This document shows, piece after piece, positions 1 to 9,927 of a DNA stretch of 9,927 bases. The DNA lies in NCBI GenBank assembly GCA_021794255.1, contig JAJYRF010000095.1, forward strand, positions 1 to 9,927, given 5' to 3'. The notes beneath the pieces were generated by a model. It was not told the DNA's origin. It ran no database searches and saw only the letters and a list, made by a program, of their open reading frames with translations. This DNA comes from a bacterium (GTDB lineage: Bacteria; SZUA-79; Acidulodesulfobacterales; Acidulodesulfobacteraceae). The position numbers and the translations under genes were made by a program. The stretch's first letter is position 1; each line of letters starts with the position of its first letter.

Positions 1-1407
1 ATGGCAGAAAATATGCTGCCTTTAGAAAATGATATTCTTGGAGTTTCATGGGACGGAACAGGCTACGGAGAAGACAAAACAATTTGGGGAGGGGAGTTTT
101 TTGAGGGAAATTATTTAAACCTGAATCATATCGGAAGTTTTAAAAAATTTAAACTTATAGGAAGCGAAAAGGCTATTAAACAGCCACAAAGGATTTTTCT
201 AAGTCTAATGTTTGAAATATTAGGCGATAAAATTATTAATATATGTGACGACAATAATAATCAAGATAATAATAAAAATATCGGCAGCAATAACATAACC
301 AAAATAAATAATGAAATTACAAGCAATAATAACCCAGATAATATTAACATAATACTCAATAATGCAGAGAACAGCAATAATAAGAATAACAATAATAAAA
401 ATAATAATAATAGTGATAACGATAATAATATTCAAAGAATATTAATTCAAGAAATTTCAGGTTTTTCTGTTGAAGAAATTCGTAAATTATATAAATTATG
501 GAAAAATGATATTAATTCGCCAGAAACTTCATCAGTTGGACGGCTATTTGATGCTGTTTCATGTATGTGTGGGTTTAAAGGTGAAGTTACATATGAAGGC
601 GAGGCAGCGGTACTTTTAGAAAATTTGGCATCGTCATATTTGTATTTAAACAGAGCCGATTATTATTATAATACTAATTATAATAATAATATCAATGCCG
701 ATAATAATAATGATAATAACAACAACAGCAACGATAACTATAATAGTAATAATAATAATAACAATAACAATAATTTTTTTTATAATAGCTTTAATAGTTT
801 AAATAAGAAATTGGAAAATAAATATAATTATAATATTAATATTATTAATAAGATTGATGCTATTGATAATAACAATAATAATACCGATTTTATTATTGAT
901 TGGACGCCTATTATTTTAGATATTTTTAATGAATTGATTAAATTACGAAAAAATGCAGGTAATTTATATAATTATTCAGACAACTGTTTAAATTCCGCAA
1001 TTTTTTCAGATTCTTCTTCAAAAAGCAATTTTAAAAAAAACGACGCCAAGTTTTATGCAGACAAATATTTATTTACTAACAATACAAACAATATTTATAA
1101 CATTAATAATATTATGAATAATAATTACGTTGAAGACACTAAAAATACTGATATTGCTAATTTAAATATTATAGCTGTTAAATTTATAAATACCCTTACT
1201 TCAATTGTTTTAGATATATCCTCAATAACAGAAAAAAGCAATATTTGCCTATCGGGAGGAGTGTTTCAGAATAGCATACTTACAGGCAAATTATTTTATG
1301 AATTAAAAAAAAGAGGGCTGTTTGTTTTTATAAATCAGAAAGTTCCGATAAATGACGGAGGCATTTCTTTAGGACAGGCTTTATATGGAGGCATTATTGA
1401 ATTTTAA
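1..1407 (+). CDS. hypF: HypF carbamoyltransferase, C-terminal part (5' end outside window), with Asn-rich insertions
   Basis: HypF converts carbamoyl phosphate to a thiocarbamate on HypE, the source of the cyanide ligands of the [NiFe] iron. Only the Kae1-like C-terminal domain is visible. The ATG at base 1 is an internal Met: 'MAEN' normally follows the HHHAH metal motif, so the acylphosphatase, zinc-finger and YrdC-like parts must lie left of the window. Recognisable blocks are WDGTGYG (residues 17-23; D18 is a likely metal/nucleotide ligand), SPETSSVGRLFDAV (173-186), VTYEGEAA, IDWTP (298-302), LSGGVFQN and NDGGISLGQA (451-460, D452). The usual FHxxL reads FINTL here. Asn-rich stretches at about 83-143, 224-294 and 335-390 separate these blocks; E. 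coli HypF has about 265 residues over the same part, against 468 here. The frame is open throughout and the C terminus is complete. The gene converges on hyaD. Confidence 0.95.
   Translation: MAENMLPLENDILGVSWDGTGYGEDKTIWGGEFFEGNYLNLNHIGSFKKFKLIGSEKAIKQPQRIFLSLMFEILGDKIINICDDNNNQDNNKNIGSNNITKINNEITSNNNPDNINIILNNAENSNNKNNNNKNNNNSDNDNNIQRILIQEISGFSVEEIRKLYKLWKNDINSPETSSVGRLFDAVSCMCGFKGEVTYEGEAAVLLENLASSYLYLNRADYYYNTNYNNNINADNNNDNNNNSNDNYNSNNNNNNNNNFFYNSFNSLNKKLENKYNYNINIINKIDAIDNNNNNTDFIIDWTPIILDIFNELIKLRKNAGNLYNYSDNCLNSAIFSDSSSKSNFKKNDAKFYADKYLFTNNTNNIYNINNIMNNNYVEDTKNTDIANLNIIAVKFINTLTSIVLDISSITEKSNICLSGGVFQNSILTGKLFYELKKRGLFVFINQKVPINDGGISLGQALYGGIIEF
247..429 (+). repeat. AAT/AAC-rich triplet tract 1 in hypF
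   Basis: This imperfect trinucleotide-like tract encodes a 61-residue, Asn-dominated insertion between the conserved 'FEILGDK' and 'FSVEEI' blocks of HypF. Ser, Lys, Asp and Ile are interspersed among the Asn residues, and both AAT and AAC are used, so it is not a pure microsatellite. It falls where HypF proteins have a surface loop between conserved segments (inference from the family pattern). Confidence 0.85.
670..882 (+). repeat. AAT/AAC-rich triplet tract 2 in hypF
   Basis: This second and purest Asn-rich tract covers about residues 224-294 and includes a run of nine consecutive Asn. It lies between the 'YEGEAAVLLENLASSY' block and the 'IDWTP' block. Multiples of three keep the frame open. 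A third, more diffuse Asn/Ser-rich stretch follows at about bases 1003-1170, before the conserved C-terminal segment. Confidence 0.85.
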
Positions 1408-1425
1408 CCCAATCTAAATATTGCC

Positions 1426-1468
1426 AAGTAAATATAAGATAAATATTTTATTTATATTTTATTTACTT
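1426..1468. terminator. AT-rich hairpin between convergent hypF and hyaD
   Basis: The left arm 1426-1445 and right arm 1449-1468 pair at 18 of 20 positions around a 3-nt loop, in the 107-bp gap between two convergent genes. The stem is almost all A-T, so it is weak per base pair although long. There is no long T run on either side. It is best read as a possible bidirectional terminator, supported mainly by its position. Confidence 0.4.
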
Positions 1469-1514
1469 TATTAATTTAAATTAAACAATTAATAATATAA
1501 ATAATAAATAAAAT

Positions 1515-1985
1515 TTAATAGAGCGGTTCAATGTCAAGCAATTTTAACTCTTTTAAAATATCGTTTACAACTAATGTTACGCAATTTTTCAAAGGTTCTG
1601 TCAATTCCATGCATACGTTATCGCAATTTTCCGGAACTGCCGCAAAAAAAATTAATTTTGGAGTATATCCTGTCAAACCGCACATAGTTACAACATCAAT
1701 AAATTCTACCTCATGCGCTGTTTTTTTCATCAGATTTACAGGCAAATTTTTATTGCTGAATTTATAAATACTGCCCGGCTTATCTTCGGTTTTGAGAGCA
1801 TCTATAATTATTGCTGTTTTCAAATTCAATATTTCATCAAGCAGTCCATAGCCCATTGTGCTGCCGTCTATAAGCTTAACTTTTGCTGTATCAAACAGAT
1901 AATTTTTATTTAAAAAATTTATTATATGTACCCCGAACCCTTCATCTTGAAGCAATATATTGCCTATTCCTATAACTCCTACCAT
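1515..1985 (-). CDS. hyaD: Hydrogenase maturation protease (HyaD/HybD/HycI family)
   Basis: This nickel-dependent endopeptidase removes the C-terminal tail of the large subunit once the active site is loaded. The 156-residue length fits the family. Diagnostic blocks are GIGNILLQDEGFGVH (6-20), DGSTMGYGLL (40-49), IIIDALK (59-65) and AHEVEF (90-95). The three residues that bind the target nickel in HybD (Glu16, Asp62, His93) correspond to E15, D62 and H91, so the enzyme looks intact. The matching substrate is HyaB of the same operon, which keeps a cleavable 15-residue tail. It is the last gene of the minus-strand run, 159 bp after the previous gene. No Shine-Dalgarno sequence precedes the ATG, so the start rests on the fit of the N terminus to the family. 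Confidence 0.93.
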   Translation of the reverse strand: MVGVIGIGNILLQDEGFGVHIINFLNKNYLFDTAKVKLIDGSTMGYGLLDEILNLKTAIIIDALKTEDKPGSIYKFSNKNLPVNLMKKTAHEVEFIDVVTMCGLTGYTPKLIFFAAVPENCDNVCMELTEPLKNCVTLVVNDILKELKLLDIEPLY

Positions 1986-2144
1986 AATATTTTTATATTA
2001 ATTTTTATAAAATATATTGTATATTTTGTTAATTTATATGTTATAAGTTGTTAATTATAAATTAATTATATTTTGTTAATTAAAATAAAATTAATTTTTA
2101 TATTAATTTATAATAGATATTAATTTATATTAATTTCTTTTAAT
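1986..2144. other. AT-rich gap between hyaD and the unknown gene, with a 10-bp direct repeat
   Basis: This gap is nearly all A and T. TATTAATTTA occurs at 2101-2110 and 2118-2127, with a 9-base copy at 2128-2136. The motif TTTTGTTAAT also occurs twice, near 2026 and 2071. No ORF or clear ribosome binding site for hyaD is present. A separate promoter for hyaD cannot be excluded, because -10-like sequences are everywhere in this composition. Confidence 0.5.
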
Positions 2145-2486
2145 TCAATCTTTTTTTATAACGCAAGGCGCAAATTTTACTTCATCATTTAAATTACCGA
2201 TCCCTGAAATATCGAGAATATCTTCTCTTGATGAGTTAAAAAAATTAGTTTTTAATATTTCGCCTGTTTTAAAACAATAATAAATCTTTTGAGCTTTAAA
2301 TTTTCTATATAATGCATATTCTTCAATGTCAACGCGAGCTCCTGAAAAAACAAGCGAATCGCAATTTTCAAAAAAATCGCTATATTTATTGTAATCTTCT
2401 GTTTTTAGGGTTTCCCCATAAGAACTGTTTTCTTTAAGGCTATAATAAATATATCCTTTTATAAGATTATCAATCATTTTCATCAT
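2145..2486 (-). CDS. Unknown 113-residue protein, coupled to hyaC
   Basis: I do not recognise this protein. It is 113 residues long, apparently soluble, with no signal peptide or membrane segment, and has three single cysteines (in ENCDSL, YYCFK and APCVI) that do not form a CxxC pair. The middle part alternates short hydrophobic strands with charged helix-like stretches (DSLVFSGARVDIEEYALYRK). Its start overlaps the 3' end of hyaC. ATG codons at 2486, 2483 and 2477 are possible; the last overlaps the hyaC stop codon and would suit translational coupling. Position between hyaC and hyaD suggests a hydrogenase-specific accessory role. It does not match HyaE, HyaF or HypC by any motif I can see. 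That it is a real gene is supported by operon position, overlap and a normal amino acid mix, more than by homology. Confidence 0.75.
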   Translation of the reverse strand: MMKMIDNLIKGYIYYSLKENSSYGETLKTEDYNKYSDFFENCDSLVFSGARVDIEEYALYRKFKAQKIYYCFKTGEILKTNFFNSSREDILDISGIGNLNDEVKFAPCVIKKD

Positions 2487-3246
2487 CCGTGATTCTTTCT
2501 AAATTATCTTTTGAATATTTATATCCGCTAAAAGGTATTAAAATGTCGCCTTCTTTCCACATAATTGAACGCCATACCTCTATATAAATATGATAAAATA
2601 TAAATATTATTATTAGCCACATTATAAATAAATGAACTAACGTTACTCCAGTTAATCCTCCAAAAACCCATAGAGTCCAATCGGTAGACATATGAAGAAG
2701 AGCTGGCCACCAGGCTCCGACCGCAGATGTTCCAGTAAAAGAAGCAACATACATTTGGAAACCTGTTGCCATTTGTAATAAAAGCAAAAGATGAAAAAAA
2801 GTAAATATCATTGCGTTAAGAGGATCTTGATATTTACCTGTCTTAGGTTTATTTTTTAAAGTAAAATAATGTTTAATCATATTAAATATTTCATGAATTT
2901 TATTCCCAAAAGGCAAAAAACTTTTATACAGCGGTTCTTTTGTAGAAAAAAAAGCTAAATATAACCATCCAAAAAAAGCAACGTCAATTAAAACAGCGCC
3001 AATAAAATGAAATTCCCGCATCCATGTCATTATAAATGCTTGATAAGTTTCTCCAGAATTTAATACCCCAATTATCGGAGAGTCAGCCTGCGTTGGAGTT
3101 TCGCCGAATAGCAAGAATGGATATGCTATATAAAAGCCTGTAATTATATTATTAATAATAGAAAGAAAAAGCGTCCAATGTATAATTCTTTTAATTACCG
3201 TCATTCTGTAAACAGTTTTTAAACCAGAGCCATTTTCTGTTTCCAT
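2470..3246 (-). CDS. hyaC: [NiFe]-hydrogenase cytochrome b subunit (HyaC type)
   Basis: This di-haem b membrane subunit takes electrons from the small subunit and passes them to quinone. It has 258 residues. Four hydrophobic spans are visible at about 24-44, 82-100, 145-166 and 203-222. Likely haem-binding histidines are H23 (RIIHW), H80 (MREFHF), H205 and H219 (HLFIMW...YHIY). The family's usual double His before 'MW' has only its first member here; the second is Leu206. Family features include ITGFYIAYP (35-43), the DPLNAMIF block (141-148) and ATGFQMY (160-166). A GAGGGT ribosome binding site (3253-3258) lies 6 nt before the ATG, which fixes the start. The gene is 293 bp downstream of hyaB, a gap that carries two strong hairpins, so its expression may be tuned separately from hyaAB. 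Confidence 0.93.
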   Translation of the reverse strand: METENGSGLKTVYRMTVIKRIIHWTLFLSIINNIITGFYIAYPFLLFGETPTQADSPIIGVLNSGETYQAFIMTWMREFHFIGAVLIDVAFFGWLYLAFFSTKEPLYKSFLPFGNKIHEIFNMIKHYFTLKNKPKTGKYQDPLNAMIFTFFHLLLLLQMATGFQMYVASFTGTSAVGAWWPALLHMSTDWTLWVFGGLTGVTLVHLFIMWLIIIFIFYHIYIEVWRSIMWKEGDILIPFSGYKYSKDNLERITDDEND

Positions 3247-3259
3247 AATAATACCCTCA

Positions 3260-3303
3260 ATATTAAGACCTTAAAATAATTTTTTAACTTAAGGTCTTAA
3301 TAT
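3260..3303. repeat. Perfect 15-bp inverted repeat next to the hyaC ribosome binding site
   Basis: The arms 3260-3274 and 3289-3303 are perfectly complementary around a 14-nt loop, and contain a GGTC/GACC core that is rare in these spacers. In the hyaC transcript the stem ends one base before the GAGGGT Shine-Dalgarno sequence. No T run follows it on either strand, so a classical terminator is unlikely. An mRNA stem controlling hyaC translation or hyaAB mRNA stability is possible; so is a site for a dimeric regulator. Confidence 0.75.
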
Positions 3304-3328
3304 ATTTATATAATACCTTAAATTAAAT

Positions 3329-3370
3329 TTTATTATTATAGTTATATTTATGAATGACTATAATAATAAA
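3329..3370. repeat. Perfect 14-bp inverted repeat in the hyaB-hyaC gap
   Basis: The arms 3329-3342 and 3357-3370 are exactly complementary and also have a 14-nt loop. The right arm plus three preceding bases (3354-3370) recurs at 3446-3462 with one mismatch (ATGACTATAAYAATAAA), so the motif occurs three times in the gap, twice direct and once inverted. No T run follows in the hya transcript direction. Confidence 0.7.
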
Positions 3371-3491
3371 GAACACATAGAATGAAGTTATAAATTTGAA
3401 TATACTTGAAATTTATATATGTTAATAGCAATATATAATTAAATTATGACTATAACAATAAAAAACTATATTTAAATATACATCTTTTAAT

Positions 3492-3527
3492 TATCTATAT
3501 CTATATCTATATCTATATCTATATCTA
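3492..3527. repeat. Hexanucleotide microsatellite (TATCTA)6
   Basis: Six perfect tandem copies of TATCTA lie 12 bp beyond the hyaB stop codon, in the 3' part of the hyaB transcript. The array is non-coding. Slipped-strand copy-number change is expected for such an array, and it lies between hyaB and the two hairpins. Confidence 0.9.
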
Positions 3528-3539
3528 TCTAATTTATCT

Positions 3540-5225
3540 TTATCTTATTTTATATTTTTTAATTTCTTTAGTTTTAGGGTCAATTATATGAACTCCGCAT
3601 GCTATGCAAGGATCAAATGAATGAACCGTTCTTAATATTTCCAACGGTTGGGATAAATTAGCAAGTTTCACGCCTATTAAAGATTCTTCATAAGCCCCTC
3701 TCTGATTAAACGTATCTCTAGGTGATCCATTCCAGGTTGAAGGAACAACAATCTGATAATGGTTAATAGTTTTATTTTTTATACTGACCCAATGACCTAC
3801 TGCGCCTCTTGGAGCAGCATCAAGCCCAATTCCTACAATTTCTTTATTAGGCATTTCATAATTTGTCCATGTAGTCTGGTCTGTTGCCATATTTTTAATT
3901 AATTCCATAGTCCATAGTTCCAAAGCATCGGCTAAATATTTAGCTTCAATAGCTCTCGCCGCCGTTCTTCCTAATGTAGAAAACAAAGCGCTTACCGGCA
4001 TATTAGAAGTTTTTAGCACATAATCGACTAATGATTTAATTTGTTTATTGCCTTTGGCATAAGCAACAAGTGTTCTGGCAAGAGGACCGACTTCCATAGG
4101 TTTATTTTCATATCTCGGAGCTTTTAGCCAGCTGTATTTCCCTTTTTCCTTAACGCTGCCGTCTTTCTTTAAACCTGTATATTCAGGGTCTGTAATTCCT
4201 ACCGTAGGGTTTAAGCCGACTTTTTCGTCAGGATATTTGTACCATGAATGAGTCACAAATTCAGTTATATTTTTTTCATTTACATCATAAACTTTAGATA
4301 AATCTCTGTCAAAAATTACGCCTCTATTTAAATAATAATTATTAGGGTCTTCATCATCAGTTAATGGAAAACCGCCATATGCAAGATAATTTTTTAACCC
4401 CCCGCCGATTCCCGCGATTGCTTCTTCTTTATAATATTTTGCAGCCAGCAGAATGTCAGGAATGTATGCGTTATTAATAAAATCTGTTATTTTACGTGTT
4501 CTAAAAAGAATATCATCCATTCTTTGCGGGTTTAATAAATCGGCTACTACAGAAATACCTCCGACTATTATAGTTTGAGAATGAGGGTCTTTTGAACCTA
4601 AAATAGCAATTATCTGAGCAGGAGTTCTTAAAACATCTAAATTATCTAAATAGTGCGATGCTATCAAGAGATTTCCTTCAGGTGGCAATTTATAAGAAGG
4701 ATTTCCCCAGTATCCATTAGCAAAAGGTCCTAATTGACCCGATGAAACAAATGATTTTAACCTTTTTTTAACTTCTTCAAATCTTGCTAAGCTTGCATTA
4801 TACGGAGCATTGGTATAGGCATAGGCAAGATCCATTGTTTTTTTAGGATCGGCGCTTAAAGCGGAAACAATATCAACCCAGTCAAAACCGGCTAATTGAT
4901 AAAAATGTATCAAATGATCCTGAACAAATTGAGCTCCTTTTAAAATATTTCTAGCCAATCTTGCATTTTTTGGAGGATGAATACCGAGAGCATTTTCTAT
5001 TGCCCATGTCGCAGTTTCATAATGAGTATATGTGCAAACGCCACATATACGCTGGGCAAATAAACCTGCATCTTCGGGAGCTCTTCCTTGAAGTATCAGC
5101 TCAATTCCTCTAAATAAAGTTGCGGAAGAATACGCATCGCTAATTGTATCTCCATTCATTTCTACTTCAATTCTTAGATGTCCTTCAATTCTTGTAATAG
5201 GATCTACTATTATTCTCTTAGACAT
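3540..5225 (-). CDS. hyaB: [NiFe]-hydrogenase large subunit
   Basis: This is the catalytic subunit holding the Ni-Fe(CN)2CO site of a periplasmic uptake hydrogenase. It has 561 residues, the normal length. N-terminal RIEGH (12-16; E14 is the family's proton-transfer Glu) is followed by the L1 motif RICGVCTYTH with C61 and C64. The APRGAVGHW block carries the conserved active-site arginine. The L2 motif DPCIACGVH gives C540 and C543 and ends at H546, and a 15-residue tail follows, the expected target of the HyaD protease. All four nickel cysteines are present. The ATG has a GAGG ribosome binding site (5234-5237) 8 nt upstream. It has no signal peptide of its own and should be exported with HyaA by the Tat system. 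It lies 73 bp after hyaA, consistent with one transcript. Confidence 0.98.
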   Translation of the reverse strand: MSKRIIVDPITRIEGHLRIEVEMNGDTISDAYSSATLFRGIELILQGRAPEDAGLFAQRICGVCTYTHYETATWAIENALGIHPPKNARLARNILKGAQFVQDHLIHFYQLAGFDWVDIVSALSADPKKTMDLAYAYTNAPYNASLARFEEVKKRLKSFVSSGQLGPFANGYWGNPSYKLPPEGNLLIASHYLDNLDVLRTPAQIIAILGSKDPHSQTIIVGGISVVADLLNPQRMDDILFRTRKITDFINNAYIPDILLAAKYYKEEAIAGIGGGLKNYLAYGGFPLTDDEDPNNYYLNRGVIFDRDLSKVYDVNEKNITEFVTHSWYKYPDEKVGLNPTVGITDPEYTGLKKDGSVKEKGKYSWLKAPRYENKPMEVGPLARTLVAYAKGNKQIKSLVDYVLKTSNMPVSALFSTLGRTAARAIEAKYLADALELWTMELIKNMATDQTTWTNYEMPNKEIVGIGLDAAPRGAVGHWVSIKNKTINHYQIVVPSTWNGSPRDTFNQRGAYEESLIGVKLANLSQPLEILRTVHSFDPCIACGVHIIDPKTKEIKKYKIR

Positions 5226-5298
5226 ATATTGTTCCTCTTAATTAATTATTATTAATTGCCTTTATCTTTAGTTTTTATCTTTACCTCTGTCTTTATTG

Positions 5299-6714
5299 TT
5301 ATTTATTATCGTCATTATTTAATTTATTATCTTTATCTTTATCTTTATCTTTATCTTTATCTTTATCTTTATCTTTATTTCCCCTTTTTTTAACTCCGGT
5401 ATATATTGCATGGGCAGCTATTCCTACACCTGCAGCTCCAAATAGAGCTACGCCAAATTCATCGGCGGTAGCTTCAACTGCAGGCAAGAAAATTTTAGCA
5501 TCGGCATTGGGCTTTTCGAAAGGCGTCATCCTGTCCCAGAAATCAGGTTCCGAACATCCGATACAACCGTGCCCGGCTCTCATCGGAAAGCTCATATCTT
5601 GATTATATTGAGCAATGGTGCAATTATTCCATGTAAAAGGACCCTTACATCCCATCATATATAAGCAATATTGTTTTTTTGCCGCGTTATCTCCCCAGTG
5701 TTTTACATATTCTCCAGCTTCAAAATGGCCTCTCCTATAACAATTGTCGTGCAGTCTTCCGGAATATGCCCAGAGCGGTCTTCCTAAACTGTCAAGCATC
5801 GGAGCCTTACCTATTAATAGATATTCAACTAATGTTCCGACTAAATTAACCGGATTAGCAGGGCATGCGGGTATATTTATAACTTGTCTGTCAGTAACCG
5901 AACTTAATCCGACAGAGCCGGTAGGATTAGGATGTGCAGCAGGAATACCCCCGTAAGAAGCGCAATTTCCTACGGCAATAATAACCCCCGCATTTTTTGC
6001 AATAGATTTAGTTATTTCCAAACCAGTTTTGCCTTTAGCGCCTATTGTAAGAAATTTGCCGTTCATAGCTGTGGGGATAGCGCCTTCGACAACTAAAATA
6101 TATTTCCCTTTATATTTTTTGACTGTTCCATCTCTCCTTGCTTCAGCCTGATAACCCGCAGGCACCATTATTGATTCCATATAATCAACGCTGACATAAT
6201 TTAATATAATTTCAGCAGGAGTTGGGTGAGCCGTTCTTAAAAAAGCTTCAGTATTTCCCATGCAATCGCTCATATCAAGCCATATGAAAGGAGTTCTTGT
6301 CAAAATATTTGCAGCTCTTGCTACCCTGGGAGCAAATATTGTCGGGAGCATTAATGCAGAAGTCAGAAGGGCTGTCCATTGAATAAATTCTCTTCTTGAA
6401 ACCCCATTAGCAGTAAAAACATTTTTAAAATTTTCATTAATATCTTTTTTTTCTTGAAAATATTCTTTTTCAAGATTGTCAAGGCGGGAATCTATGATTT
6501 TTAAAACCTCATCAGAATCTTCGGATATATTTCTAAGCGGATCCCATTTAAAATCTTCTGATGCTTTATTTACGCAATAATCATCAGGTTTGCTTTCATT
6601 AAGTCCAGGTTTGTTTACATTAATCTTATTTTCTTTAATTTTACTATTAATATTTTCTTTCTTTTTTAATTTTTTAACTTTGATGTGAACTTTATTGTGA
6701 TTGTCAGCTTCCAT
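5299..6714 (-). CDS. hyaA: [NiFe]-hydrogenase small subunit with Tat signal, long N-terminal extension, C-terminal anchor and Lys-Asp tail
   Basis: This electron-transfer subunit carries three Fe-S clusters. It has 471 residues. Residues 1-105 are a charged Lys/Asn/Asp/Glu-rich extension. The Tat motif SRREF (106-110), a hydrophobic stretch (111-128) and a likely ARA/A cleavage site (near 134) follow. Distal-cluster ligands H322, C325, C350 and C356 and medial-cluster ligands C365, C384 and C387 are present; P377 fits a 3Fe-4S medial cluster. For the proximal cluster C151, C251 and C284 are present, but the second cysteine of CxGC is N154. The extra cysteines of oxygen-tolerant 6-Cys enzymes are absent. 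A membrane helix (about 419-441) is followed by eight Lys-Asp units (447-462). A GGAG site (6723-6726) 8 nt before the ATG and no in-frame ATG, GTG or TTG with a ribosome binding site nearer the Tat motif support this long start. Confidence 0.95.
   Translation of the reverse strand: MEADNHNKVHIKVKKLKKKENINSKIKENKINVNKPGLNESKPDDYCVNKASEDFKWDPLRNISEDSDEVLKIIDSRLDNLEKEYFQEKKDINENFKNVFTANGVSRREFIQWTALLTSALMLPTIFAPRVARAANILTRTPFIWLDMSDCMGNTEAFLRTAHPTPAEIILNYVSVDYMESIMVPAGYQAEARRDGTVKKYKGKYILVVEGAIPTAMNGKFLTIGAKGKTGLEITKSIAKNAGVIIAVGNCASYGGIPAAHPNPTGSVGLSSVTDRQVINIPACPANPVNLVGTLVEYLLIGKAPMLDSLGRPLWAYSGRLHDNCYRRGHFEAGEYVKHWGDNAAKKQYCLYMMGCKGPFTWNNCTIAQYNQDMSFPMRAGHGCIGCSEPDFWDRMTPFEKPNADAKIFLPAVEATADEFGVALFGAAGVGIAAHAIYTGVKKRGNKDKDKDKDKDKDKDKDNKLNNDDNK
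5329..5376. repeat. Coding hexanucleotide microsatellite (ATCTTT)8 in hyaA
   Basis: Eight perfect copies encode the Lys-Asp repeat at the C terminus of HyaA. Since the unit is six bases, slippage would add or remove dipeptides without shifting the frame. Degenerate CTTTATCTTT-like sequence continues past the hyaA stop codon to about 5257, suggesting that the array was once longer. Confidence 0.9.
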
Positions 6715-6860
6715 AATGAATTCTCCTAAAAAATTTAATATAAATTCAATATTAAAATAAAATTTTCAACATCAATATATGTCTAAATATTTCTAAATAT
6801 CTAAGTAAATTCAAAATAAATATTTAGTTTATTTAGTTTGAGCTGATTTTAATTATTAAT

Positions 6861-6890
6861 TATATTATATTATATTATATTATATTATAT
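6861..6890. repeat. Pentanucleotide microsatellite (TATAT)6
   Basis: Six perfect TATAT units lie about 150 bp upstream of hyaA in the divergent promoter region. Because it consists of TATA steps it can mimic several -10 elements or act as an easily melted tract. Confidence 0.85.
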
Positions 6891-7069
6891 TAAAAGATTT
6901 TTGATAATAATAATATCTAATAAATAGTAGTTCAAAATTAAATTTACTAATCTAATTATTTACTAATTAATAATGATATATTTATTGTGTTTATTATTTA
7001 TATCTATTCTTTTCTTTTAAATATATATAATATATGTTTATTTTTTGAATTATATAACTATATACATAA

Positions 7070-7097
7070 AATATATATAAAAATATAAAAAAGTCAA
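7070..7097 (-). promoter_or_regulatory. Possible sigma-70 type promoter for hyaA
   Basis: On the minus strand, TTGACT (7092-7097) and TATATT (7070-7075) are separated by 16 bp. It would give a leader of about 350 nt before hyaA, which is long. It is one of few -35-like sequences in the region, but the composition makes chance matches likely. Confidence 0.25.
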
Positions 7098-7260
7098 ATC
7101 CAACAGAATTTTAAAAAATAAATAAAAATATTATTATTTAATAAAAATTAAAGTAAAATAAACAAAATAATGATATATTATTATTATAAAATTAATTTAA
7201 TTTAATTATTTTAGCAAATTTAGTGTATAAATAATTTTTTAAAATAAACTTTCATAAATT

Positions 7261-7285
7261 TTATTTTATTTTATTTTATTTTATT
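7261..7285. repeat. Pentanucleotide microsatellite (TTATT)5
   Basis: Five perfect TTATT units lie about 115 bp upstream of hypA, directly before a consensus -10-like TATAAT at 7310-7315. Copy-number change would alter spacing upstream of that element. Confidence 0.8.
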
Positions 7286-7309
7286 TTTATTGGATACTAG
7301 AATACATTA

Positions 7310-7315
7310 TATAAT
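7310..7315 (+). promoter_or_regulatory. Candidate -10 element for hypA
   Basis: TATAAT matches the consensus exactly and would start a transcript about 80 nt before hypA. The -35 position reads TTATTG at 17-bp spacing, which is weak, and similar sequences are common here. Confidence 0.3.
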
Positions 7316-7380
7316 ATATTCTTTTTATTTTATTTTTATTTAATTTTTTAATAACTCATAATTTTAATTTATTTTTCATT

Positions 7381-7400
7381 TTTTGTTATATTTTGTTATA
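7381..7400. repeat. 10-bp tandem duplication reaching the hypA start codon
   Basis: TTTTGTTATA occurs twice in tandem, and the last A is the first base of the hypA ATG. The duplication takes up the place where a ribosome binding site would be expected, and no purine-rich Shine-Dalgarno sequence is present. Confidence 0.85.
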
Positions 7401-7639
7401 TGCATGAACTTTCAATAGCTTTAGGAATATTGGAGATGCTTGAAAAAAATAACTATTTAAAAGATATAAAGATAGTTAAGACTATTAATTTGACAATCGG
7501 AAATTATTCAGGGATAGATAAAAATTATTTGGAATTTGCTTTTCAAAATTTAGGAGACAATAGATTTAAAACTGCTATTCTTGAGTGTAATTATAATGAA
7601 ACCGATGATATTAAAGTTAATGAAATTATAGCAGATTAA
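7400..7639 (+). CDS. hypA: HypA nickel chaperone lacking the zinc-binding domain
   Basis: HypA receives nickel with HypB and delivers it to the large subunit. Full-length members have about 113 residues; this one has 79. The N-terminal nickel site MHE (H2, E3), the first helix (ELSIALGILEML) and the LTIGNYSGIDKNYLEFAF block are all typical. The sequence then reads LECNYNETDDIKVNEIIAD and stops. The two CxxC pairs of the structural zinc domain are missing. The last residues resemble the usual HypA terminal strand (GD-L-V-EIEV pattern), so the zinc domain, which is inserted within the nickel domain, looks cleanly removed and not cut off at the end. No Cys-rich reading was found in other frames downstream, so a simple frameshift is unlikely. 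No ribosome binding site is visible. hypB follows after 332 bp. Confidence 0.88.
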   Translation: MHELSIALGILEMLEKNNYLKDIKIVKTINLTIGNYSGIDKNYLEFAFQNLGDNRFKTAILECNYNETDDIKVNEIIAD

Positions 7640-7648
7640 CGCGTTAAT
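7635..7648. repeat. Perfect 14-bp palindrome over the hypA stop codon
   Basis: ATTAACGCGTTAAT is its own reverse complement and contains the hypA TAA. Its CGCG core stands out in a spacer that is almost all A+T. It could be a dimer operator or a chance palindrome. Confidence 0.6.
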
Positions 7649-7971
7649 TGATAGAATATTAGCTAATTATTAATTTATTAAAGTTTAAAAATTAATTAAA
7701 TAGTTTTATTTATAGTTAATTATTTTTAAGGCTAATAAAAATTAATTAAATTAATTATTTGATAACTTAACCTAATTGTATCACTCTCCACTCTTCACTT
7801 TTTCACTATAGATTAATAATTAGTGATAATTTTTATTTTTATAATAAATATAAATATAAATGTAGATATAAATATAAATGTAGATATAAATATAGATGTA
7901 AATGTAAATTAGATATTATTGCTAATTTATTTAAATAAGATTTATTATATAAAATTAGTAAGGAGTTTAAA
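7640..7971. other. 332-bp hypA-hypB spacer
   Basis: No gene is visible. The spacer holds the downstream half of a palindrome, an ATTAGCTAAT palindrome (7658-7667), a pyrimidine-rich island with four CACT units at 7-8 nt spacing (7781-7807), a weak inverted repeat (7803-7808 with 7821-7826) before a T-rich stretch, and an 18-bp tandem repeat before hypB. The spacing is unusually wide for hypA-hypB, so hypB may have its own promoter, but I cannot pick one out. Confidence 0.6.
7851..7904. repeat. Three tandem 18-bp units upstream of hypB
   Basis: TAAATATAAATGTAGATA occurs perfectly at 7851-7868 and 7869-7886, with a third copy at 7887-7904 matching 15 of 18 bases. Each unit is itself made of three related hexamers (TAAATA, TAAATG, TAGATA). 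The array ends 67 bp before the hypB GTG. Confidence 0.85.
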
Positions 7972-8649
7972 GTGTACCCTGAACATAAAAAAATTTCTAT
8001 TCAAAGAAATGCCTTAGAAGCGAATGAATTTATTGCAAAATCTAATAAATCAAAATTTGAATTAAATAAAATATTTGTTGTAAATCTGCTAAGTTCTCCG
8101 GGTTCAGGCAAGACCTCTATACTGGAGCATATTATTCCTATTTTAAAAAATAAAAATATTAAAGCTTGCGTGATAGAGGGCGATATTGAAACAAATTTAG
8201 ATAAAAAAAGAATTGATGCATTAAATATTCCTTCCTACCAGATTATTACAAAAGGAACATGTCATCTTGACGCTAAAATGATTGATAAATCACTCTTAAA
8301 TATTGATTTAAATAACTTAGATATTTTATTTATAGAAAATGTAGGCAACTTAGTATGCCCGACTTCTTTTAATTTAGGGGAGGATTTTAAAGCTGTTGTT
8401 TTGTCAATTGCAGAAGGAGACGATACACCTTTAAAGTATCCGGCGGCTTTTTATAAATCTGAAATTATGATTATTAATAAAATTGATTTATTGAAAGTGC
8501 TTGATTCTAATATAGAAAAAATTAAAGAAAATGCATTGTCAATAAATAATAAGCTAAAAATATTTGAAGTTTCATGCAAAACAAATGAAGGAATTAAAGA
8601 ATTGTCTGATTATTTTATAGACATGATTTTTAATAAAAAACAAAAATAA
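7972..8649 (+). CDS. hypB: HypB GTPase, nickel insertion
   Basis: This is the SIMIBI-class GTPase that drives nickel transfer to the hydrogenase large subunit together with HypA. It has 225 residues. The P-loop SSPGSGKTS spans residues 41-49, EGDIET 69-74, GTCHLDA 95-101 with the G-domain metal ligands C97 and H98, ENVGNLVCP 122-130 with the third ligand C129, EGDDTPLKYP 148-157, and the guanine-specificity motif NKID 169-172. It lacks the N-terminal CxxCGC nickel site and any His-rich stretch, so it belongs to the short form. Start is GTG, supported by AGGAG (7961-7965) 6 nt upstream and by the family N terminus. nfo follows after 73 bp. Confidence 0.97.
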   Translation: MYPEHKKISIQRNALEANEFIAKSNKSKFELNKIFVVNLLSSPGSGKTSILEHIIPILKNKNIKACVIEGDIETNLDKKRIDALNIPSYQIITKGTCHLDAKMIDKSLLNIDLNNLDILFIENVGNLVCPTSFNLGEDFKAVVLSIAEGDDTPLKYPAAFYKSEIMIINKIDLLKVLDSNIEKIKENALSINNKLKIFEVSCKTNEGIKELSDYFIDMIFNKKQK

Positions 8650-8690
8650 TAACAAATAATAAAAATAAATACTTATAATAGTAACTGTAT

Positions 8691-8718
8691 AATAAATAAT
8701 AAATAATAAATAATAAAT
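8691..8718. repeat. Heptanucleotide microsatellite (AATAAAT)4
   Basis: Four perfect AATAAAT units end 4 bp before the nfo ATG and replace the region where a ribosome binding site would lie. Seven-base slippage would alter the nfo leader and not its reading frame. Confidence 0.85.
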
Positions 8719-8722
8719 AAAT

Positions 8723-9559
8723 ATGTGTTTAGGTGCTCACGTTTCAATATTAGGCGGGTTGCAAAATGCTTGCGGCCATGCTTTTAAAACTGGCTCATCG
8801 GCTATACAAATATTTACAAAAAATCAAATAAGATGGGATTTTGAAGAACTGAAAGAAGAAAATATAAGGATTTTTAAAGATTGTATAAGCAAATTAAAAA
8901 TAACCCCTGTATCCCATATATCATATTTAATAAACTTAGGCAGCGCAGATGAAAATATTGAGCAAAAATCTTTTAGTCTTTTCATGGAAGAAATTAAAAG
9001 ATGCCATATGCTTGGCATTAATCAGTTAATCTTTCATCCCGGCTCAAATAAAAATTTAACTGAAGATAAAACCATCGGCAAAATTTCATCTAATTTAAAA
9101 AAAATAATTGATTTAACTTATGCTTACGATGATGTTTCCTTAACAATAGAGACTACGGCAGGGCAAGGCTCTTCAATCGGATATAAGTTAGAACATATAA
9201 GGGATATAATTAATGTTATAAATAGCGATAGAATAAAAGTTTGCGTAGATACTTGTCATATATTTGCCGCAGGATACGACATAAGAGACGAAGAGGGCTA
9301 TATTAATTTTACAAATATATTTAATAAATTAATAGGGTTAAATAAATTAGTTTCATTTCATTTAAACGATTCGATGAAAGAGTTAGGCTCAAGAGTTGAT
9401 AGACATGCTAACATAGGAGAAGGTTTTATAGGTCTTAAAACTTTTAAATATATTATAAATGACGATAGATTTAAAAATATTCCTAAGGTTGTGGAAACCC
9501 CCGGCGGCGATGAAGAGCATAAGAGAGATATTGAAATAATAAGAAAGTTGAAAATATAA
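8723..9559 (+). CDS. nfo: Endonuclease IV (AP endonuclease, Nfo)
   Basis: This zinc-dependent enzyme cleaves DNA 5' of abasic sites in base excision repair. The 278 residues match the family. The TIM-barrel fold is complete, and all nine trinuclear-zinc ligands can be placed by motif: H65 (SHISYLINL), H105 (FHPGS), E143 (ETTAGQG), D176 and H179 (VDTCHIFAAGYD), H213 (FHLNDS), D226 and H228 (VDRHANIGEG) and E258 (ETPGG). No Shine-Dalgarno sequence precedes the ATG; a microsatellite sits there instead. The N terminus (CLGAHVSILGGL) agrees with the usual start. It is not a hydrogenase gene; it follows hypB by 73 bp on the same strand and may be cotranscribed. Confidence 0.97.
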   Translation: MCLGAHVSILGGLQNACGHAFKTGSSAIQIFTKNQIRWDFEELKEENIRIFKDCISKLKITPVSHISYLINLGSADENIEQKSFSLFMEEIKRCHMLGINQLIFHPGSNKNLTEDKTIGKISSNLKKIIDLTYAYDDVSLTIETTAGQGSSIGYKLEHIRDIINVINSDRIKVCVDTCHIFAAGYDIRDEEGYINFTNIFNKLIGLNKLVSFHLNDSMKELGSRVDRHANIGEGFIGLKTFKYIINDDRFKNIPKVVETPGGDEEHKRDIEIIRKLKI

Positions 9560-9590
9560 TAAAATGTAATAGTAAGATTATGTTTAATTT

Positions 9591-9643
9591 TTGAAATTTT
9601 ATTATAATGTTGTCAACTTTTAATTTGTCTATTGAAATTTTAT
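9591..9643. repeat. 12-bp direct repeat upstream of tRNA-Gly
   Basis: TTGAAATTTTAT occurs at 9591-9602 and 9632-9643, 41 bp apart (about four helical turns), just before the candidate promoter of the tRNA. The rest of 9560-9750 is AT-rich and shows no gene. Confidence 0.6.
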
Positions 9644-9645
9644 AA

Positions 9646-9675
9646 TTGACATTATTAAGAAAATATATTTAAATA
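9646..9675 (+). promoter_or_regulatory. Candidate promoter for tRNA-Gly
   Basis: A consensus TTGACA (9646-9651) is followed after 18 bp by TAAATA (9670-9675), placing transcription start about 70 bp before the tRNA. TTGACA is much less likely by chance than A+T-only motifs in this sequence. Confidence 0.5.
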
Positions 9676-9750
9676 TTATATTATTATATATTGTATATTA
9701 TATATGTATTATTAGTATCATTATTAATAGCATATTATAATTGTAAATTT

Positions 9751-9825
9751 GCGGGAATAGCTCAGTGGTAGAGCATCACCTTGCCAAGGTGAGGGTCGCG
9801 GGTTCGAGCCCCGTTTCCCGCTCCA
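9751..9825 (+). tRNA. tRNA-Gly, anticodon GCC, CCA encoded
   Basis: A full cloverleaf can be drawn by eye. The acceptor arms 9751-9757 and 9815-9821 pair perfectly. The D stem is 9760-9763 with 9771-9774. The anticodon stem TCACC/GGTGA encloses TTGCCAA, with anticodon GCC at 9783-9785. There is a 5-nt variable loop. The T arm 9798-9814 has the TTCGAGC loop. Discriminator T is followed by an encoded CCA (9823-9825). GCC reads GGC and GGU codons. No intron or integrated element is seen at its 3' end within the window. Confidence 0.98.
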
Positions 9826-9879
9826 GTTAAAACAAGCAGTATTTAAGCCTTTCCAGTCGTTATCCCTCCAAAAATTATA

Positions 9880-9908
9880 TTGACATATTTGTCAAATTTT
9901 GCTAAATT
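9880..9908 (+). promoter_or_regulatory. Promoter-like sequence with overlapping inverted repeat, reading out of the window
   Basis: TTGACA (9880-9885) and TAAATT (9903-9908) are 17 bp apart, the ideal spacing. TTGACA and TGTCAA (9890-9895) form a 6-bp inverted repeat with a 4-bp spacer, so the -35 box lies inside an operator-like site. The driven gene would lie right of the window. Confidence 0.45.
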
Positions 9909-9927
9909 TTAATGAAAATTTCCAAAA

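Follow-up and report, generated by a model that had tools for sequence, protein, structure and literature searches.

The short hypA gene and its product

The window analysed here is a 9,927-nucleotide stretch of DNA (contig JAJYRF010000095.1 of assembly GCA_021794255.1, positions 1 to 9,927) from a bacterium of the family Acidulodesulfobacteraceae, in which a hypA gene is flanked by hypB and a divergent [NiFe]-hydrogenase set (small and large subunits, cytochrome b, and protease). The hypA open reading frame (ORF; 7400..7639, + strand) encodes a protein of 79 residues, with the N-terminus MHELSIALGILEML and the C-terminus ECNYNETDDIKVNEIIAD, which retains the MHE nickel site, D40, the alpha/beta nickel domain, and the final strand of HypA. 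In a Pfam profile search, residues 1-64 were aligned to positions 1-65 of the 112 positions of PF01155 (40.5 bits, cut-off 28.9), and the remainder of the profile, including the zinc domain, was unmatched. The first-pass annotation of this DNA had proposed that the two-CxxC zinc domain was gone and that its precise excision would leave a foldable nickel domain. The sequence and the Pfam match confirm the former, and the sequence, an AlphaFold model, and structural superposition agree on the latter. The model (predicted local distance difference test score, pLDDT, 90.5) can be overlaid on solved HypA over its whole length, with the zinc domain skipped, and the window HypA is predicted to contain the complete alpha/beta fold, including the final strand. 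The absence of the zinc domain from window HypA, with the nickel domain and final strand kept, is thereby confirmed, and its precise in-frame removal is supported.

The MHE site, the nickel domain, and the final strand are shared with HypA in general (PF01155/TIGR00100; Helicobacter pylori, 6g81; Thermococcus kodakarensis, 3a43), as is the place beside hypB and a hydrogenase operon. In contrast, the window protein has neither the zinc domain nor the CxxC pairs and is about 34 residues shorter than HypAs of 113 residues. Its sole His is at position 2. Among 41 aligned short HypAs, PF01155 was matched at E<=1e-3 in all 41, the MHE motif is found at residue 1 in all 41, and the positions without variation include M1, H2, E3, G34, and D40. 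D40 is shared with H. pylori HypA, whose nickel-site residues have been listed as M1, H2, E3, and D40 (PMC5557546). However, D40 is not universal, because in an unaligned count of 58 full-length HypAs other residues are also common at position 40 (E in 23, V in 11, D in 8, and L in 8).

We take His98 of T. kodakarensis HypA to belong to the zinc domain. In the HypAB proteins of that organism His98 is a nickel ligand (PMC7055735), and, compared with the complex (5aun/5aup), the window HypA has no counterpart of it. All HypA proteins are said to carry the zinc site in a 2019 review (PMC7055735), a 2025 review describes HypA with both domains (PMC12134894), and no description of a zinc-less HypA was found in the parts of the open-access literature available to us. 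Since the defining feature, the zinc site, was tested and is absent, the window protein is not a canonical two-site HypA but a zinc-free variant.

Conservation in the phylum and losses elsewhere

The closest named relative by HypB is Candidatus (Ca.) Acididesulfobacter diazotrophicus (92% HypB identity), which NCBI places, spelt Acidulidesulfobacter, in the phylum Ca. Acidulodesulfobacteriota. The phylum sample comprised 30 genomes from the phylum of G001, the genome of this relative. A search with a short-HypA model detected one copy each in 22 of the 30, and a PF01155 search (E<=1e-4) returned the identical 22 genomes with one match each, ending at profile position 53-64 of 112. When the DNA was read, all 22 genes proved to have exactly 79 codons; the deletion that the first-pass annotation suggested seeking in relatives is thus found in every hypA of the phylum sample. 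That annotation had also named findings that would speak against it, namely a second normal hypA with this copy decayed in related strains, or a CxxC segment restored on resequencing. No second, full-length hypA was found beside the short form at E<=1e-4 in the 22 hypA-bearing genomes, and none was found in G001-G005 even at E<=10, where only zinc-ribbon and other weak pieces appeared. CxxC is present in 0 of 23 short HypAs (22 from the phylum plus the window), and any Cys in 7. A protein search yielded 45 proteins, 40 of them clusters of 79-88 residues with the short form and five ordinary 113-residue HypAs; some of the short proteins are already labelled HypA in databases, under names that are silent on the missing domain.

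Between the window hypA and those of loci L001-L005 (five pairs), nonsynonymous divergence (dN) was 0.03-0.12 and synonymous divergence (dS) 0.27-1.11, with dN/dS of about 0.07-0.15. By these values the short hypA is under purifying selection, and the gene is intact rather than decaying. The window is very AT-rich around hypA, which would favour a frameshift, misassembly, or decaying pseudogene in one genome as the source of the short frame. However, the same 79 codons in 22 genomes, the 40 clusters of 79-88 residues, the low dN/dS, and the intact ends leave such an artefact practically no chance, and frameshift or decay was rejected on these grounds.

It might also be supposed that the zinc domain was split off and is supplied in trans by a separate zinc-ribbon protein. 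Certain zinc-ribbon ORFs do weakly match positions 57-107 of PF01155, the best with E values of 3.3e-4 (G002) and 9.6e-4 (G004). Eight of them, a part of the matches, were read and have other architectures, named by eye as FmdB-like, DUF134-like, rubredoxin-like, and generic ribbons, and G001 and G005, which have the same short HypA, gave zinc-ribbon matches only at E 0.02-0.03. A free-standing HypA zinc domain, for which nothing beyond such weak matches appeared in a non-exhaustive search of small ORFs, was rejected as a candidate, and we regard supply in trans as very improbable.

Apart from this, no Shine-Dalgarno-like motif precedes the hypA ATG in any of the 22 genomes (L138-L159), and the leader is T-rich (window 7375-7399). 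Such a motif is present for 17 of 19 large-subunit genes and for 19 of 22 hypB genes (for hypB, with the best start chosen). The hypA start is possibly leaderless or U-rich.

Zinc-less HypAs are also found outside this phylum. About 46 other zinc-less clusters were recognized by eye among the 91 CxxC-free sequences in the best 120 of 141 proteins, whereas the remaining 45 of those 91 appear to be fragments (short, contig-end, or frameshifted). Set A4 took in 35 of the 46 clusters. As for full-length HypA, a motif search of 80 HypB loci found it in 58, with L001-L005 short, and the genomes of L006 and L007 carry it. In 25 genomes (25 of the 73 loci after L007), matches end at position 65-72 of 81 within open frames of at least 114, which we read as full-length. 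Surveys of further phyla, whose counts are lower bounds (the best 14 candidates were scored in many genomes), revealed four zinc-less loci in two other phyla (G343 and G366; G865 and G1186). Matches at E<=1e-16 were obtained from 100 of 396 genomes in the phylum of G052, which the locus title gives as Acidobacteriota; three of these matches reach position 79 or beyond, those of G343 and G366 being zinc-less and that of G378 full-length. The phylum of G051 gave matches in 48 of 398 genomes at E<=1e-16, among them G816, whose HypA we read as full-length, and G479:C85, where a contig end truncates the match. At E<=1e-14, at least 181 of 395 genomes match in the phylum of G006, and among the matches listed G865 and G1186 are zinc-less and G1025 was read as full-length. 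Contig C79 of G1186 (L247, L251) carries a zinc-less and a full-length hypA within about 8 kb, which allows both forms to be compared in one natural setting.

Phylogenetic analyses of HypB were used to ask how often the domain was lost. Two trees were built, one with 79 rows (six dropped by a motif filter) and one with 86 rows (those six included); each is a rapid reconstruction containing several long branches, and G865 has no HypB in them. A single origin of all 25 zinc-less rows was rejected by the approximately unbiased (AU) test (p 0.000386), as was a shared origin of the window phylum and G343 (p 0.00011 with 79 rows, 0.00101 with 86 rows); for a single origin of G343 and G1186, AU p was 0.0162. 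A single origin of the window phylum with G366 (AU p 0.585) or with G1186 (AU p 0.398) was not rejected, so that shared origin or transfer may apply to these. A HypA tree of 81 columns has few supported forks; it needs six changes, of which starred branches force one, and was given no weight. Judging from the HypB trees, at least one of the four other loci represents a separate loss. The results thus go beyond the first-pass annotation in two respects: all hypA genes found in the phylum share the loss of the zinc domain, and this loss occurred more than once.

HypB and the hydrogenase neighbourhood

The hypB gene (7972..8649, + strand) encodes a GTPase of 225 residues (TIGR00073, 233.7 bits, cut-off 121.2). 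The first-pass annotation had noted that this HypB lacks an N-terminal nickel site and had seen in it part of a reduced nickel-insertion module. The absence of an N-terminal Cys/His-rich stretch is real (23 of 23 HypBs, by eye) but not special, because the G-domain metal motif CH...LVCP is kept in all 23, as is the pair of residues needed for HypA binding. In Archaeoglobus fulgidus and Escherichia coli, two hydrophobic positions of HypB are required for this binding, Y4 and L6 in A. fulgidus (PMC3287977). I8 and I10 of the window HypB align with them (I10 stands opposite L6 in the alignment, and I8 was placed by counting back), and both positions are aliphatic in all 23 HypBs, by eye. Considering that this pair is kept, docking need not depend on the zinc domain. 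By sequence, the HypB of this clade looks normal apart from its N-terminus.

HypB was detected in the same 22 phylum genomes as hypA and adjoins it in all 22. PF00374 was matched in 23 of the 30 genomes, including 20 of the 22 that carry hypA, and HypD in 20, including 18 of those 22; the eight genomes without hypA, for which completeness is not given, have a PF00374 match in three and HypD in two. Six loci of different members contain HypD, HypE, HypF, the protease, cytochrome b, both hydrogenase subunits, the short HypA, and HypB, with HypC in five of the six. The only visible oddity of the maturation set in these six loci is HypA.

On the - strand of the window lie the genes for the [NiFe]-hydrogenase small subunit (5299..6714; TIGR00391, 404.5 bits, cut-off 179.5), with a Tat-like RREF motif identified by eye, the large subunit (3540..5225; PF00374, 667 bits), the client for nickel insertion, with a C-terminal DPCIACGVH motif and tail, the b-type cytochrome subunit (2470..3246; PF01292, 55.2 bits, cut-off 30.1; TIGR02125, 117.6, just below its cut-off of 121.5), and the protease (1515..1985; PF01750, 76.7 bits, cut-off 23). 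The small subunit has a KDKDKDKDKD... repeat at its C-terminus (window 5299-5400, - strand) and a long charged stretch before the RREF motif. Between the cytochrome b and protease genes, a protein of 113 residues (2145-2486, - strand) has no family match above cut-off; it is present in L001-L005 and L234 and was not detected in L235-L239. The window start cuts a HypF gene, of which the C-terminal part remains (1..1407, + strand; PF22521 and TIGR00143, the latter matched from profile position 483 with 164 bits, as a part below the cut-off of 466), with long Asn/Asp-rich low-complexity inserts, Asn-rich by composition, between conserved HypF blocks.

Proposed nickel delivery without a zinc domain

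Taken together, these results make it highly probable that the window protein is a minimal HypA that functions, consisting of the nickel-binding half after in-frame removal of the zinc-binding subdomain, and most likely it works as HypA does. From the retained ligands, the fold, the gene context, and selection, we infer that it binds and delivers nickel. Established here are the sequence, the excision, the predicted fold, the conservation, the gene context, and the repeated loss; the biochemistry outlined next is inferred. HypB-GDP, with nickel at the Cys-His/Cys site of its G domain, would dock HypA through its N-terminal hydrophobic pair, and nickel would move to HypA, where the N-terminal amine, His2, Glu3, and probably Asp40 form the site. 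Ni-HypA may then contact the large-subunit precursor at its N-terminal tail and hand nickel over to the site already loaded with Fe(CN)2CO; trimming of the tail by the protease would follow. Such a HypA would lack zinc-linked sensing of pH or nickel, the zinc-swapped dimer, and the additional His ligand seen in T. kodakarensis HypAB, so that release and specificity would have to rest on the nickel domain and HypB alone.

E. coli HybF, a HypA paralogue, retains the zinc domain, and G343 and G1186 are reminiscent of it in that zinc-less and full-length copies coexist there. HypA paralogues can be dedicated to particular hydrogenases (PMC12134894). The full-length HypA in these genomes (two of the four other loci), which may share the work with the short form, is one of several points that weigh against a functional minimal HypA. 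In H. pylori, C74A, C74D, C91A, and C94A left hydrogenase at 9-15% of the wild-type level, compared with 12% in the hypA knockout (PMC5557546), so that the zinc site matters where it exists; other Cys changes gave 36-60%, so that Cys-to-Ala changes span 9-36%, and the two His changes had little effect (PMC5557546). The window HypA also misses the equivalog cut-off of NCBIfam TIGR00100 (33.9 against 88.1 bits), and at the zinc-less locus of G865 the 11.5 kb that were read showed no hypB. The absence of a second hypA in the phylum is a statement on assembled sequence, because genome completeness is not given, and no biochemistry of any zinc-less HypA was found in the accessible parts of the open-access literature.

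A different explanation is relaxed selection, in which high-nickel habitats such as acid mine drainage leave little need for HypA, the regulatory zinc domain was shed there, and HypA was kept as a docking scaffold for HypB. High nickel can bypass HypAB in the laboratory (PMC12134894), in E. coli HypA serves to dock HypB onto the large subunit (PMC7055735), and the order was described from acid mine drainage (PMC6776010, in which a word search did not find 'hydrogenase'). However, the nickel ligands do not vary among the 41 short HypAs and selection is purifying, neither of which a mere scaffold or idle gene would need, and, habitats aside, the same excision occurs in other phyla. We therefore consider this explanation unlikely.

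Returning to the functional minimal HypA, the zinc half may be optional, because the cut-down form spans a phylum and arose separately elsewhere. On balance we lean towards the broader view that HypA without zinc constitutes a minimal nickel chaperone in its own right that has evolved repeatedly, that the zinc domain is a regulatory insertion that can be removed, and that throughout the phylum [NiFe]-hydrogenases mature through a hand-off from HypB to HypA without zinc-domain movement or a zinc-domain ligand. Natural HypAs without the whole domain amount to a direct experiment, in which the contribution of the zinc domain is what the short forms do without. The 79-residue HypA and short HypB may be among the smallest natural nickel-delivery pairs and could prove useful in structural studies and in assembling hydrogenases in other host organisms.

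Other candidate nickel-related genes were also observed in the phylum. L184 and L188 contain a second [NiFe]-hydrogenase large subunit, which is VhuA-like (357.7 bits, below the cut-off of 800; 501 residues in L188) and resembles group 3, and partial PF00374 matches of this kind occur in 7 of the 30 genomes (two were read). A UreG-like GTPase, named by eye, is encoded at L160 of G001, the genome of L001, and a second nickel enzyme may therefore exist there.
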